DNA of 64,000 nt from Actinoalloteichus hymeniacidonis. GTDB taxonomy: Bacteria; Actinomycetota; Actinomycetes; Mycobacteriales; Pseudonocardiaceae. A program made the position numbers and the translations under genes. A model generated the notes under the pieces. That model searched no databases. It was not told the origin of the DNA and saw only the letters and a list, made by a program, of their open reading frames with translations. The DNA lies in NCBI RefSeq assembly GCF_014203365.1, contig NZ_JACHIS010000001.1, positions 3,162,001 through 3,226,000 of the forward strand, read 5' to 3'. Positions 47,047 to 55,810 of the stretch are shown one piece after another. Numbering within the stretch: the stretch's first letter is position 1; every line of letters starts with the position of its first letter.

Positions 47047-48171
47047 TCAGCTCTCGCAGAAGGCTATGCCGAACAACCCGAGCAGCGCAGTCGGATCGGT
47101 CGGGGTCTCTCCGGGGTTGTAGGACAGCACGAGGGTTCGGCCGTCCTCGGATTGCACGGCGTAGGTGAGGTAGCCGATGAGTTGCCCGCTGTGCCCACCC
47201 AGGGTGACCCCGCAGGGCAGTTCGATCTCCTGGTAGCCGAGTCCGTAGGCGAAGGCGGTTCCGGTGTCGACGGTGGTGCGCATCGCCGCCAGCGTCTCCG
47301 CGCTGAGCAGTTCGCCGCCGAGCAAGGCGGTGAGGTAGCGGTCGAGGTCCTCGGCGGTAGAGATCATCTCGCCTGCGGCCCAGTCCAGCGAGGGGTTCAT
47401 CTCGGTGGCATCGACGGGCTGCCCGTCCACGATGATGTAGCCGCGGGCGTGTGGGTCGGGAAGGCCGGGCTCGATCCCGGGGACGCTGGTGTCGGTAAGG
47501 CCTAGCGGCTCGAGGATCCGCTGCTGGACCTCGTGACCGTAGGGTCGACCGGTGATCTGCTCGATGAGCATCGCGGCGATCACGTAGTTGGTGTTGGAGT
47601 ACTGCCAGCCCTGTTCCCACGGTTCGAAGTACGGCCCGTGATCGACGGCGACCTGGACCAGTTCGGCCGGCTCGTAGGTGTCGAATCGGGCGTCACCGCG
47701 CCACCGGTTGGTCGAGAGGTGCTCCTCGTTGGCGTAGTCGTAGATACCGCTGCTGTGGTCGAGGATCTGCCGCACGGTCATCTGGTCGCCATTCGGCACG
47801 AGACCGGGCAGATGGGTCTCGATCGGGTCGTCGAGTGCCAACCGCCGTTCGTCGACGAGCTGAAGGGCAACGGTGGCGACGAAGGTCTTGGTGACACTGC
47901 CGATTCGGAAGTATCCGAGCGGATCGACCTCGCCGCCCTCGACTCGATCGGCGACCCCGGCCGCGCCGGTCCAGGTCTCGTCGCCGTCGCGGAAACGGAC
48001 GAGTGCTCCGGTGGCCATATCGCCGTCCACCAGTTGGTCGACGGCCGCCTGCAACCCGGCATCGGATACTCGATCGACCGGCTCGGGTACCGCGCCCGCG
48101 TCGGGGCTACCGCAGGCTGCGAGCACGGAGGAGACAAGCAGAATTGCAGGGAGACTGTGCACCTTGGTCAT
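47047..48171 (-). CDS. Lipoprotein serine hydrolase (class C beta-lactamase / D,D-peptidase family)
   Basis: A 374-residue secreted lipoprotein: hydrophobic signal AILLVSSVLAAC ends in a lipobox. The penicillin-binding fold has the active serine and lysine in GSVTKTF, the tyrosine in YSNTNY and the third motif GGHSGQLIG. These are intact, so it should be an active hydrolase, probably a D,D-peptidase or esterase. I place the start at 48171 because it gives a normal signal peptide; the upstream extension has none. Confidence 0.9.
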   Translation of the reverse strand: MTKVHSLPAILLVSSVLAACGSPDAGAVPEPVDRVSDAGLQAAVDQLVDGDMATGALVRFRDGDETWTGAAGVADRVEGGEVDPLGYFRIGSVTKTFVATVALQLVDERRLALDDPIETHLPGLVPNGDQMTVRQILDHSSGIYDYANEEHLSTNRWRGDARFDTYEPAELVQVAVDHGPYFEPWEQGWQYSNTNYVIAAMLIEQITGRPYGHEVQQRILEPLGLTDTSVPGIEPGLPDPHARGYIIVDGQPVDATEMNPSLDWAAGEMISTAEDLDRYLTALLGGELLSAETLAAMRTTVDTGTAFAYGLGYQEIELPCGVTLGGHSGQLIGYLTYAVQSEDGRTLVLSYNPGETPTDPTALLGLFGIAFCES

Positions 48172-48409
48172 GGGCACAACGCTAGGAATCCAGGTGGCGC
48201 TCGACCATGAGGCGGACCGCCGAGCATCGGTGTGTGTTGTGGCAGCGCCGCACTGTGGAGATCCACAGTAGGGCGGCTGCTCGATCCTCCGCTCGGCGCT
48301 GACCACACGCTTCCGCGATGGTTTCCTCGGAACCGCTGCGCTCGTTTCCGTGTCGCGGGTGTGGCCCGGCGCACCGAGTAACGGACCGCATCATCAGTAG
48401 GCTTTCACC

Positions 48410-51137: not shown

Positions 51138-52373
51138 TCACAGCCCCAACCGGGTCACGGCGTTGTCGTCGAGGGGGTTGGCCACGCGAATGTAGCGGTG
51201 CACCGTGCGGGGATTGGACCAACGGCCCTGCCGCATGATCTCGCGATCGCCTGCCCCGCCGAGGGCCGCCTGGGTGGCGAAGCCCGCGCGCAATGAATGC
51301 CCGCCGAACAGATCGGGATCCAAGCCCGCACGGAGTGCGTAGCGTTTGACCAGGTCGGACACCGCTCGTCCCGACAGCGACTTCTCGGCGATACCGCCGT
51401 GGCGGTTGACCGAGGGCAACAGGGGCATAGCGAGGTCGGTGAGTGCCGCTACCGGGGTGAACCGATGGCAGCGGTGGACCTGTTCCGCCGCGTCCGCGTC
51501 GGCGAGTAGGGAGCGAACACCGTCTTGGCCGTGCCGTCGATGGGTGTCGATCAGCTCGGTCCAGGCGGCGAAGGCACATACCGGGCAGGTGTGCGGCCTA
51601 CCACCCCTGGGCAGGACCACCTGCTGCTCGGCGGTGCCCGAGGCGTCGGTCTTGGTGACACCGAGTCGCACGATCAACAGTGGTTCCCCGGTGGCGGGGT
51701 CGACTTCGGCGGCGACGTCGGCGAAGGTCAGAGCCGCGAGTTCGCTGCGTCGAAGTGCCCCGGCGAAGCCGACCAGCAGTAGGAGCGTGTCGCGGCGACG
51801 GGTCACGCCGCCGGGCCAGTTCGCATCCGGGCGCTCGGCGAGCAGGGCTTCCAAGGTGTGCAGCAGTACCGGGCGCTTGCGGCTCTGTCTGGCTCGTCTG
51901 GTTCGGCGGATGCCTCGCAGAGTCAGCCGGACGACATCGGCGCGGGTGGGGGAGGGCAGGCCGTTGGCGGCGTGGACGGCGGCGATGGCTGCGGCTTTGC
52001 GATCGAGTGTCGCCGGGCTGTACGCCCATTTCGGCGGGTCGGAACCCGCACGTCGCGCATCGGCCGCCAATGCGAAGTAGACCGAGACATCGACCGGATC
52101 GGCGGGCAGCGCTTGTCGTCCCTCGGTGGCACACCATGCGGACCACGCGATCCAGTCGGTGCGGTAGGCGCGCAGCGTGTTCGGCGATTGGGATGCCTCG
52201 AGGTAGCGCGACAGGGCGTCGGCCTGCTCGGTGTCGAAGCGGTCGCGGACTGCGGCCACTGCGCCGTGGTCGACCAGGACGCTGCGGTTGGAACGGTGCT
52301 GCAGCGCCGCCTGCACTGCGGCGGGCAGCCGGTCCTCGGAGACGGCGTCGGGTCGTTCGGTCACAGGCCTCAT
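51138..52373 (-). CDS. Tyrosine recombinase, complete
   Basis: A 411-residue tyrosine recombinase. The core-binding domain (ALSRYLEASQSPNTLRAYRT, DWIAWSAWCATEGRQALP) precedes a catalytic domain with all six residues: Arg in GALRRSELAAL, Lys in GVTKTDASG, His-x-x-Arg in GGHSLRAGFATQA, the Trp of GRWSNPRTV and the nucleophile in HRYIRV. The start is ATG at 52373. No tRNA or repeat pair is visible next to it, so its role (remnant integrase of a lost element, or resident recombinase) is unclear. It directly precedes the unusual peptide operon, on the opposite strand. Confidence 0.88.
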   Translation of the reverse strand: MRPVTERPDAVSEDRLPAAVQAALQHRSNRSVLVDHGAVAAVRDRFDTEQADALSRYLEASQSPNTLRAYRTDWIAWSAWCATEGRQALPADPVDVSVYFALAADARRAGSDPPKWAYSPATLDRKAAAIAAVHAANGLPSPTRADVVRLTLRGIRRTRRARQSRKRPVLLHTLEALLAERPDANWPGGVTRRRDTLLLLVGFAGALRRSELAALTFADVAAEVDPATGEPLLIVRLGVTKTDASGTAEQQVVLPRGGRPHTCPVCAFAAWTELIDTHRRHGQDGVRSLLADADAAEQVHRCHRFTPVAALTDLAMPLLPSVNRHGGIAEKSLSGRAVSDLVKRYALRAGLDPDLFGGHSLRAGFATQAALGGAGDREIMRQGRWSNPRTVHRYIRVANPLDDNAVTRLGL

Positions 52374-52789
52374 GATCCAGCACGCCGCGACGTGGCGACG
52401 CTGCGCACCTCCATCGCCACATAGTCTCACTCTTTCCGGTGGGATTCCGGCTGGATATTCTCGCGTCGATTACCTGGAGTCGCGAATTCCCGATAGGGCC
52501 TTCCCGTCACGCGAGTCACATCCGAACGAATTCACCACCCGATTCCCGGATGGGTCCTCCGGCACTCACGTGGCATCGAGTTCGTGACGAACAGCGATTT
52601 CCATCCAGCGAACGTCAACAAGGCCGCTCTTCCGGCACGTCAGGCCTTTGACCTCTCCTAATGCTTTCCAGAAGATGACGTTCATCAATTCCGTGCACCT
52701 AGCACCGCTCGCCTTCATTTGATCTCCACGGGCGGGTTGAATGTGAATTCACCCAGGCCCTGCGCAGAGTGGTAATTCAAGGAGGAGCG
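52374..52789. other. Intergenic region before the peptide operon
   Basis: About 415 bp between the tyrosine recombinase start and the peptide gene. The sequence is somewhat lower in GC than its neighbours and shows no gene. It should contain the promoter of the peptide operon; I see no clear operator, only a strong ribosome site (AAGGAGGAG) at its end. Confidence 0.45.
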
Positions 52790-52981
52790 ATGCGGACGTT
52801 CGACCACACCGAAACATCGACCGTCCCCAGCGCCGAGGAGATTCGCGCGGTAGCGGAATTGATCGAGGAACCGGAGAACCCGATCGCGGACCCGCCACTG
52901 TTCGAGCCGAAGACGCTTGGCGACTGCATGTTGGTGGTCTCCCACGGTGAGCCCAAGGCACCACGATCCGCCGCGGGATGA
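52790..52981 (+). CDS. Small peptide, possible RiPP-type precursor
   Basis: A 63-residue peptide gene with a near-perfect ribosome site (AAGGAGGAG) before ATG 52790. The N-terminal half is acidic and helical (SAEEIRAVAELIEEPENP), resembling leader peptides; the C-terminal part contains a single cysteine (TLGDCMLVVSHGEPKAP). Two unknown proteins and a beta-lactamase-fold protein follow in tight succession. The size, acidic leader and context suggest a ribosomally made precursor, but I find no known modification enzyme, so the class cannot be assigned. Confidence 0.6.
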   Translation: MRTFDHTETSTVPSAEEIRAVAELIEEPENPIADPPLFEPKTLGDCMLVVSHGEPKAPRSAAG

Positions 52982-53013
52982 GCGCGACGCGAACCCGAGG
53001 AAGGAACGAGAAC

Positions 53014-53730
53014 GTGTCCCAGCTCGACACCGAGCAGACCACCCGGGCGAACTTCGCGGCGCTGGCCGATGCACTGGCCGAGAACGTCGTCCGTGCGCTG
53101 CGTGGCATGGACGACGCCTACACCCTCAGCGCCGCGGTCGACGTCACCGACGAGAAGGGTGCCCTCGCCGCCGTCCGAGTCCTCGGGGTGGACGCCCTGG
53201 CGCCGCACCTGCTGAGCGGGCGACGGCTGGACCGGGCCGATGTCGAACTGGTGCTCGCGGGTTTGCGGGCCTTCCCGTCGCTGAGCCTTGACCGGGAGCT
53301 GCCCGCTATTCCCCGGGTACGCGACTGGCTCACGTCTTGGGCGCTAGCCTCGATGGGGGTCGCAGGTCTGGACACCGACTGGCCTGCGGAGATCGGACCC
53401 GGCTTCGGTAGACAGCCGGGCTGGGCGTCCTGGTGCACCGTGATGGCCCGGCTCTCCACACTGGCACTGCCCGGGGTGCACTGCCCACTCCACGAGGACG
53501 CGCGTCGATTCCCCGCAGACCTCGAACGCGGTATCGCCAGGTCGATTCTGCGCCGCGATCACCGCACCGCCGCCCGGCTCGCCCGATGGCGTGCCTTCGG
53601 AGGCGGTGCGAAGTCGGAGCTGTCGCTGACCTCGGTCCTGCGGCATCTGGAACTGGTGGCCGGGAACGATCCGCGAGTGCTGCTGGACGTGGTCGTCGCG
53701 ACCCGCATGGTGGAGGGAATTCGGCGATGA
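53014..53730 (+). CDS. Unknown protein, second gene of the peptide operon
   Basis: A 238-residue, mostly helical protein I do not recognise. I favour GTG at 53014 because AGGAAGG stands upstream; an ATG at 52978 would give an ATGA overlap with the peptide gene but has no ribosome site. Notable segments are WCTVMARLSTLALPGVHCPL, with conserved-looking Trp, Cys and His, and SILRRDHRTAARLARWRAF. It overlaps the next gene by four bases (ATGA). Confidence 0.7.
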   Translation: MSQLDTEQTTRANFAALADALAENVVRALRGMDDAYTLSAAVDVTDEKGALAAVRVLGVDALAPHLLSGRRLDRADVELVLAGLRAFPSLSLDRELPAIPRVRDWLTSWALASMGVAGLDTDWPAEIGPGFGRQPGWASWCTVMARLSTLALPGVHCPLHEDARRFPADLERGIARSILRRDHRTAARLARWRAFGGGAKSELSLTSVLRHLELVAGNDPRVLLDVVVATRMVEGIRR

Positions 53731-54680
53731 ACAAGGAGTTGGTGGCCCTGGGCCACCACCTGGCCGGTTCGGCATTCGGCTGGCTGAGCGAGGCCGCGCC
53801 GCATTTCCGACTCGTCCCGGACCTACCCGCGACCGAGGTCGACATCGGTGACAGCATCAAACCGCTGTCCGAGCTGGCATTGGCGGGATCGTTGGCGGTG
53901 CGCGAGGGCGTGGCCGGGAGCCGCGAGGCCCAGATCGCGCCGGAGATCGTCGATTTCGCCTGGCGGGAGTTCGGCTGCGGTTCGCTGCTGCTGGCCATGC
54001 AACGTCGAGCCCCCGGCGAGACCTACCCGATGGAGACCTACGCGCCCTTCGCGCGCGCGGGTCGCCGCAACCGGGACCTCGACGAGTTGTTGGTCCACCT
54101 CGCCGGGCTGCGGGCCGCCCGAGTACCCGAGCTGATGCCCAACCGACTGCTCGCGGTGGCAGGGGCTCAACGGATCATCGGATTGCCGCAACACATCGAC
54201 CGGGTGGGCGCGCTGGCTCGCACCTGGCTCGGCGGCCGACCGGAACCGTGGACGATCGACTTCCTCACCGCCTACGCGGTGACCCACACGGTGTTCCACG
54301 TGACCGACTGGGGTGCGCACCCGGCGGAACTGCCCGTCCCGCTGCAGAACTATCTGCACCGTTGGCTGCCCGCATGGCTCGAGGTGTACCGAGAGGCACG
54401 GCAGTGGGACCTGGTCGGCGAGCTGCTGTTGGTCGATCTCTGCCTGGAGTCGCCGAGCTACCCGGTGTCCTGCTGGACCGACCTGGCCGAGGCGCAGCGG
54501 CCCGACGGGCTGCTGCCCTACGGTCCGTTGCCGGCGCCACGCCGGGTGGCGGAGGCGTTCCGGAGTTGCTATCACCCGACGGTCGTAGCCGCGATCGCCG
54601 GAACACTCCTGGTCTCGCGGGGCATCACCGCGCTGATCCACACACCGCAGGCCGCAGGCGGGGTCGGAGTCGGGGCATGA
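53727..54680 (+). CDS. Unknown helical protein, third gene of the peptide operon
   Basis: A 317-residue protein whose helix pattern recalls alpha/alpha-toroid proteins (the DUF6895-like type): FLTAYAVTHTVFHVTDWGAH, YLHRWLPAWLEVYREARQWD, GELLLVDLCLESPSYPVSCW and SCYHPTVVAAIAGTLL. Several histidines, cysteines and acidic residues sit at helix ends and could form an active site. It overlaps both neighbours by ATGA. The role is unknown; the context suggests action on the 63-residue peptide. Confidence 0.7.
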   Translation: MNKELVALGHHLAGSAFGWLSEAAPHFRLVPDLPATEVDIGDSIKPLSELALAGSLAVREGVAGSREAQIAPEIVDFAWREFGCGSLLLAMQRRAPGETYPMETYAPFARAGRRNRDLDELLVHLAGLRAARVPELMPNRLLAVAGAQRIIGLPQHIDRVGALARTWLGGRPEPWTIDFLTAYAVTHTVFHVTDWGAHPAELPVPLQNYLHRWLPAWLEVYREARQWDLVGELLLVDLCLESPSYPVSCWTDLAEAQRPDGLLPYGPLPAPRRVAEAFRSCYHPTVVAAIAGTLLVSRGITALIHTPQAAGGVGVGA

Positions 54681-55810
54681 CTCGCCCTCTGGAGCGACTG
54701 AACACCATGCTGCCCGCGTTGCTGCGCGAGTCCCGAGGCGCGTCGCTGGTGTTGGGCACCGTTGTACGGGGTCGACGGTCGGTGATCTGCCATGGTGCGC
54801 TCGATCGGGAGGGCAGGCCGCCCGCCGATGCACGCACCCTGTTCGAGCTCGGGGCGGTGACCAAGACGTTCACCGGGCTGCTGCTCGCCGAGATGGTCGA
54901 GCGCGGCGAGGTGGGCCTCGACGAACCGATCCGCACCTATCTCCCCACCGAGGTGCGGGTCCCCCGGCGCACCGGACAGATCACGCTCGGACAGCTGGCT
55001 TCGCACACCTCCGGGTTGCCTGCGGTACCCCGCAATCTCTCTCGATCTCGGGCCCGCACGCCCAATCCGTTCGAGCGCTACGAACTCGCCGAGTTGTATG
55101 CGGGGCTGAGCCGCACCACCCCGCACGGGCGGCCGGGAACGGCCGGGCCGGATTCCGCACTGGGCGTCGGGCTGCTCGGAATCCTGCTCGGAGCGGTCGC
55201 AGGGCAGGACTGGCAGCGCTTGGTGGTCGAGCGGGTCTGCCTGCCCTTGGGCTTGACCCAGACCTGCGCGGACGAACGAGAACGACCGGAGCTGCTCAGC
55301 GCCATCGGCCATCGGCGAGGCCGGAAGGTGCCACCGTGGCGGATGGGCGCATTGGCAGCGGCAGGTGCGCTCCGTTCCACCCCCTGCGACCTGTTGCGCT
55401 ACCTCGACGCCCATCTACGGCCGGAGCGCACCCCGCTGGAGCGGGCGTTGTGGCGCAGCCACGAGCCTCGGGGGAGAACCCGGAGCGGTGATCAACGCTG
55501 TCTGGACTGGTTGCGACGCATCGACCCGGCCGGCGAGACGGTCTACCTCCATGCCGGTGGTACTACCGGCGCCCTGTCCTTCCTTGCCCTCTGTCCGCGC
55601 CGGGGCACCGGGTTGATGCTGGCCGCCGACGTCAACCCCGGCGGGCGGGCCCGGGTCGTCGATCTGGCCTACCGATTGTTCACCGAGATCACCGCGGATG
55701 AGGCCGTCCGCCACCGCGAGGCCGAACTCAGGGTCTGGGCCTCGGCTGCGCCCTACTCCGGGCCGTTCGAGATGCCCGCTCTCAGCGGAGTGTTGCTGCC
55801 CGAGGCGTAG
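54677..55810 (+). CDS. Beta-lactamase-fold protein with lost catalytic serine
   Basis: A 377-residue protein of the serine beta-lactamase/D,D-peptidase fold without a signal peptide, so cytoplasmic. Where active relatives have GSxTKTF, this protein has LGAVTKTFTG: the nucleophile serine is alanine (codon GCG). The second motif YSN is replaced around AGPDSALGVGLLG, while the third motif survives as HAGGTTGALS. It is probably a non-catalytic binding protein, or it acts by other residues. Last gene of the peptide operon, ATGA overlap with the gene before. Confidence 0.8.
   Translation: MTRPLERLNTMLPALLRESRGASLVLGTVVRGRRSVICHGALDREGRPPADARTLFELGAVTKTFTGLLLAEMVERGEVGLDEPIRTYLPTEVRVPRRTGQITLGQLASHTSGLPAVPRNLSRSRARTPNPFERYELAELYAGLSRTTPHGRPGTAGPDSALGVGLLGILLGAVAGQDWQRLVVERVCLPLGLTQTCADERERPELLSAIGHRRGRKVPPWRMGALAAAGALRSTPCDLLRYLDAHLRPERTPLERALWRSHEPRGRTRSGDQRCLDWLRRIDPAGETVYLHAGGTTGALSFLALCPRRGTGLMLAADVNPGGRARVVDLAYRLFTEITADEAVRHREAELRVWASAAPYSGPFEMPALSGVLLPEA

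Follow-up and report, generated by a model that had tools for sequence, protein, structure and literature searches.

The stretch of DNA analysed here (the window, 64,000 nucleotides of Actinoalloteichus hymeniacidonis and part of one 6.3 Mb contig) carries a unit of four genes on its forward strand. The unit opens with a 63-aa, precursor-like peptide that starts on an ATG (52790..52981, +; identified as an open reading frame and by a family HMM), and its ribosome-binding site, AAGGAGGA with an AAGGAGG core, can be read directly from the sequence just upstream (52779..52786, +). Gene 2 (53014..53730, +) encodes a 238-aa, predicted all-helical protein without a Pfam, NCBIfam or PDB relative; its start is the GTG at 53014 with AGGAAGG, with the ATG at 52978 as a second possibility. 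Gene 3 (53727..54680, +) encodes a 317-aa DUF6895 protein (PF21836), a putative peptide epimerase, and gene 4 (54677..55810, +) encodes a 377-aa protein of the S12/PF00144 serine-hydrolase fold in which Ala takes the place of the catalytic Ser60 and Asp that of Tyr159. ATGA overlaps join gene 2 to gene 3 and gene 3 to gene 4, and the start signals and reading frames of all four genes are intact. An earlier note on this DNA had described a peptide with an acidic leader and a strong ribosome site that is tightly coupled to three downstream genes, and both features are plainly present. Directly upstream of the operon, in divergent orientation, lies a gene for an integrase-family protein (51138-52430, −), and ~5 kb upstream is a second PF00144 serine hydrolase (47047-48306, −), which has intact SxxK and YSN motifs and is not of the cassette type.

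Scanning one genome per species for DUF6895 yielded 396 relatives of gene 3, and gene order was counted in the best 80 of these loci from named genomes. Gene 2 is found upstream of DUF6895 in all 80, and the hydrolase is found downstream in 77. Two of the three cassettes that lack the hydrolase (L098 and L142) keep a normal peptide core, so the hydrolase is not strictly required. A homologous small peptide ORF lies 5' of gene 2 in 112/115 loci, a set in which some genomes are counted twice and which gave 96 distinct peptides among 111 aligned; one of the three loci without a peptide call (L088) proved on inspection to hold a divergent peptide. The genera among the best 80 include Streptomyces, Kitasatospora, Saccharothrix, Lentzea, Nocardiopsis, Streptosporangium and Actinoalloteichus, among others. 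DUF6895 was detected in 38/200 genomes of the same family versus 6/296 genomes drawn across the phylum, and in 0/14 control genomes; gene 2 was detected in 6/396 genomes across the phylum. In RefSeq, plasmids of Streptomyces and Kitasatospora have the peptide, two to three hypothetical proteins and a serine hydrolase annotated in one run. In the 6-kb flanks of the cassettes nothing is conserved besides the cassette genes; this holds for transporters and regulators too. The four-gene unit is real and widespread in Pseudonocardiaceae, Streptomycetaceae and other (soil) actinobacteria, and we found no description of it in the open literature. Because the four genes travel together across loci, joint function and a peptide-modification system, both proposed in the earlier note, are supported. 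The genome mining suggested there finds the unit to be common among actinobacteria, and the peptide gene, on whose conservation with the other three that proposal depended, is indeed conserved with them. In eight loci (L076-L079, L138, L143, L146 and L153), a tandem pair of DUF6895 copies accompanies a distinct type of peptide (RDSRECA...LLLSPPTPRPKKG), and in Streptomyces philanthi (L147, 7107-8084) the hydrolase match is broken into several pieces, as expected of a degenerate copy.

The peptides share a common layout that consists of a variable N-terminus, the motif L(M/V)xEPEAxVSDAPxYAPEAxG, a run of ~6-9 mostly leucine residues and a final SP(K/P)xPKxPK. An HMM trained on 93 homologues, with the window peptide and its two same-genus relatives left out, recovered the window peptide as the sole significant match among 1186 window ORFs (E = 2.8e-9; next E = 0.53), with 35.0 bits versus a best of 14.7 bits in 5000 shuffles. 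The peptide ORF is not a product of chance. It keeps the acidic leader with the family motif (EEPE...ADPPLFEP) and has the tail SHGEPKAPRSAAG, and its leucine run has shrunk to GDCMLVV. Both same-genus relatives keep the run (GGALLLGLLL or AGLLLLGLLLAL), and a LLLLLLLLSPKEPKEPK-type core occurs in intact cassettes of Streptomyces or Kitasatospora. The family has the properties expected of a RiPP precursor, namely a short encoded peptide with a conserved leader and a distinct core, located beside putative modifying enzymes in those 112 loci. One subgroup of peptides (L087-L091, L093, L095-L097, L102 and L111) carries a C-terminal extension, DEPVEDAFGGxxQNLACAxAF, after the leucine core.

Gene 3 matches DUF6895 over profile positions 3-288 of 289 (E = 6.6e-85; 285.4 bits versus a cut-off of 23.8), while NCBIfam returned no match for the peptide, gene 2 or gene 3. 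A DUF6895 member is reported, in work cited in PMC13352647, to be the peptide epimerase of a lasso pathway (Shi et al., ACS Catal 2026, 16:1757). Pfam runs on representative DUF6895 loci outside the cassette revealed that, where gene 2 is absent, DUF6895 adjoins LanB, LanC or flavoprotein genes (L061, L063, L064, L066 and L072), a lasso synthetase, a protease and a small precursor (L067), or a radical-SAM gene and a small peptide (L073). The earlier note held that no known RiPP enzyme was present; since the family of gene 3 has a reported epimerase and sits in several types of RiPP cluster, this claim gives way to a candidate RiPP enzyme within the operon itself. The five lanthipeptide clusters are of class I, with LanB, LanC and in several cases a flavoprotein; the precursors in L064 and L066 have CTPGC motifs, and in L064 a second, partial DUF6895-like gene lies beside the first. 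The putative lasso cluster (L067, 7998-11709) comprises Asn-synthetase-like and transglutaminase-like genes, the precursor MQENTPNTEVEVEFVGMVEEVTMGWTGPTDDFIDGDWTP, DUF6895 and a FAD-monooxygenase-like gene. At L073 (5756-9275), a 40-aa acidic peptide ending in AEDWCVVNNSQAL is followed by radical-SAM, glycosyltransferase-like and DUF6895 genes. DUF6895 also occurs outside actinobacteria, on a Cupriavidus plasmid (L170, 5066-10007), where it is preceded by ORFs of 164 aa and 125 aa, the latter precursor-like, and followed by one of 1040 aa.

The fold prediction proposed in the earlier note for its two unknown proteins gave all-helical models for both (pLDDT 93.7 for gene 2 and 95.7 for the AlphaFold2 model of gene 3). 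The description as unknown holds for gene 2, which has no relative in Pfam, NCBIfam or the PDB, but not for gene 3, which is DUF6895. The gene 2 model matched no PDB fold at E ≤ 0.001, and gene 2 always adjoins a DUF6895 of the cassette type. Profile comparison with hhalign (probability 0.6%) revealed no similarity between gene 2 and DUF6895, which rejects gene 2 as a diverged half of that protein; nor is it an RRE, a winged helix with beta strands, as the gene 2 and gene 3 models both have zero strands. RREs are frequent in RiPP systems yet not required, and many RiPP classes lack one.

Gene 4 matches PF00144 (E = 1.5e-44), with all NCBIfam matches below the cut-off. The earlier note had read the nucleophilic Ser as Ala and the YSN motif as gone in a beta-lactamase-fold protein, and we read the same residues: SxxK is A60-V-T-K and YxN is D159-S-A, while Lys63, H292 and the HxGxTxG motif (HAGGTTG) are kept. 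Having lost Ser and Tyr, the window copy does not qualify as an active S12 serine hydrolase, which is defined by SxxK, YxN and HxG. The cassette family does qualify, with catalytic Ser, Lys, Tyr and His retained in 74 of the 76 hydrolases aligned, including those of both same-genus relatives. A60 and D159 are unique to the window copy, and the hydrolase at L117, a locus where no peptide was detected, has SxxR. Since the active sites of the homologues are intact, the catalytic loss is local to the window copy. The earlier note had proposed a pseudoenzyme as binding partner, to be abandoned if homologues kept an active serine; they do, and the idea that the system as such relies on a pseudoenzyme is rejected. 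A second, intact cassette-type hydrolase acting in trans is likewise rejected, because the genome holds none (next best 115 bits versus 439). Among proteins of solved structure, class C beta-lactamases and not D-peptidases come closest to gene 4, and they score above ClbP, which aligned over nearly the full length of gene 4. ClbP acts on D-Asn substrates, and other enzymes with D-residue peptides as substrates also belong to the S12 family. The aligned N-termini of gene 4 have no evident signal peptide, which places its action inside the cell.

Our preferred interpretation, which we consider somewhat probable, is that the unit is a minimal, undescribed RiPP cassette that makes D-amino-acid, leucine-rich peptides, with DUF6895 as the epimerase and the S12 hydrolase for processing. 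The sequences themselves establish that the unit is conserved, that the peptides form a family, that gene 3 is a DUF6895 protein and that an active site intact elsewhere is lost here together with the leucine run. The small peptide would be the precursor, made up of an acidic leader, a leucine-rich core and a proline/lysine-rich tail. We infer that DUF6895 would convert at least one residue of the core to the D-form. Gene 2, the helical protein that constantly accompanies it, probably serves to bind the substrate or the complex. Gene 4, as a rule a catalytically active S12 serine hydrolase of the cytoplasm, would then act on the D-residue peptide, with leader removal, tail removal or transpeptidation as candidate reactions. 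Because S12 includes D-peptide enzymes and ClbP is related to gene 4, epimerisation followed by D-specific processing is the natural, though unproven, order. In the window copy, leucine run and hydrolase active site are lost together, as would fit a hydrolase that acts on the leucine core; as a single case, this hints weakly at such a role. Against the interpretation as a whole stand the low identity of the window DUF6895 to the lanthipeptide and lasso types, the closeness of gene 4 to class C beta-lactamases, the lack of a conserved transporter and the few cassettes that do without a hydrolase.

Other assignments of the two enzymes can be weighed against this cassette of epimerase and hydrolase. 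The cassette DUF6895, from a diverse family, may instead serve a structural purpose or modify the peptide in some other way, as the window protein is only ~22-24% identical to lanthipeptide- and lasso-type members and its predicted alpha/alpha toroid had only weak Foldseek matches (glycosidases and terpene cyclases), which were not used for function; this fold hosts many chemistries. Eight residues (E49, Y183, T186, H187, D228, E232, G261 and H283), however, are invariant in the aligned DUF6895 members from cassette, lanthipeptide, lasso and radical-SAM contexts, which suggests a shared acid/base chemistry, and we regard a non-epimerase as rather unlikely. It is less likely still that the hydrolase is a transpeptidase, macrocyclase or acyltransferase and not a peptidase, in the manner of PBP-type thioesterases and LovD-like S12 proteins. 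The S12 fold supports all three reactions and intracellular action would suit them, but the conserved neighbourhood includes no gene for a carrier protein or an acyl donor.

For the window copy itself, the best reading is a cassette that is degenerating or redirected, its pathway either stalled before hydrolysis or turned to a different product. Outright decay, with a hydrolase and a core that no longer function and an operon in the course of being lost, has a little short of an even chance. The catalytic Ser and Tyr are gone together with the leucine run, no other cassette-type hydrolase exists in the genome, and among positions conserved in four close relatives 22/123 are changed in gene 4 versus 22/254 in genes 2 and 3, a twofold excess (Fisher p = 0.016) that fits relaxed constraint. 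Against decay, no frame or start signal of the four genes is broken, genes 2 and 3 show no unusual changes and retain virtually every residue conserved in their families, and the peptide keeps its leader motif. The state of genes 2 and 3 also suits a hydrolase kept as a true pseudoenzyme in this species, which would bind the peptide or its D-form without cleavage (as escort, immunity factor or sensor) alongside a co-evolved peptide. In keeping with such retention, gene 4 runs for 377 codons without a stop or frameshift despite dS >1 to relatives, and besides the two catalytic residues most conserved positions are kept (4/40 changed). The raised change rate in gene 4 and the absence of the same loss from every other homologue argue against it, and we consider it unlikely. 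The intact frame and a dN/dS of ~0.2 between the window copy and L042 would suit either decay that set in recently or a non-catalytic role that has been kept. More speculative, and improbable, is an undescribed RiPP class in which DUF6895 converts the leucine run to yield a peptide of D- or D/L-leucines, with a hydrophobic segment that resembles gramicidin and a Pro/Lys tail. A D-specific serine hydrolase would complete this peptide, and the window hydrolase would be a non-catalytic D-peptide binder that changes the product.

Compared with known systems, the cassette combines familiar parts in a different setting. Gene 3 belongs to the same Pfam family (285 bits versus 23.8) as the lasso-peptide epimerase reported by Shi et al., as cited. 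The cassette differs from that pathway in its precursor and partners and shares only ~22% identity with the DUF6895 of the L067 lasso cluster; the Asn-synthetase-like cyclase and transglutaminase-like protease of lasso clusters are absent from its conserved flanks. Neither LanB/LanC nor LanM-type genes of lanthipeptide clusters were found in these flanks or in the Pfam results for genes 1-4. As in the cassette, DUF6895 lies beside a small precursor in lanthipeptide (L061, L064, L066 and L072), lasso (L067) and radical-SAM (L073) clusters; none of these, however, has gene 2 or a cassette-type hydrolase, and the cassette lacks their core enzymes. The hydrolases share fold and motifs with the S12/class C beta-lactamase family (PF00144; AmpC and ClbP), but lie in a peptide operon and lack an evident signal peptide, and the window copy departs further from that family in its missing Ser and Tyr. 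Epipeptides (YydF/YydG) and the systems of MslH or linaridin epimerisation pair a small ribosomal peptide with an epimerase, as the cassette is proposed to do, whereas the cassette has no radical-SAM or calcineurin-type enzyme and its putative epimerase is of a different family.

If the proposed pathway is correct, many actinobacterial genomes would carry a compact cassette, of four genes and with no dedicated transporter found in its conserved flanks, that makes D-amino-acid peptides without radical-SAM chemistry, and thus a simple enzyme set for protease-resistant peptides. It would also give a function to the uncharacterised helical protein family of gene 2 and show a beta-lactamase-fold enzyme put to a new use within an operon. 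The window copy provides a natural active-site variant with which to probe the role of the hydrolase.
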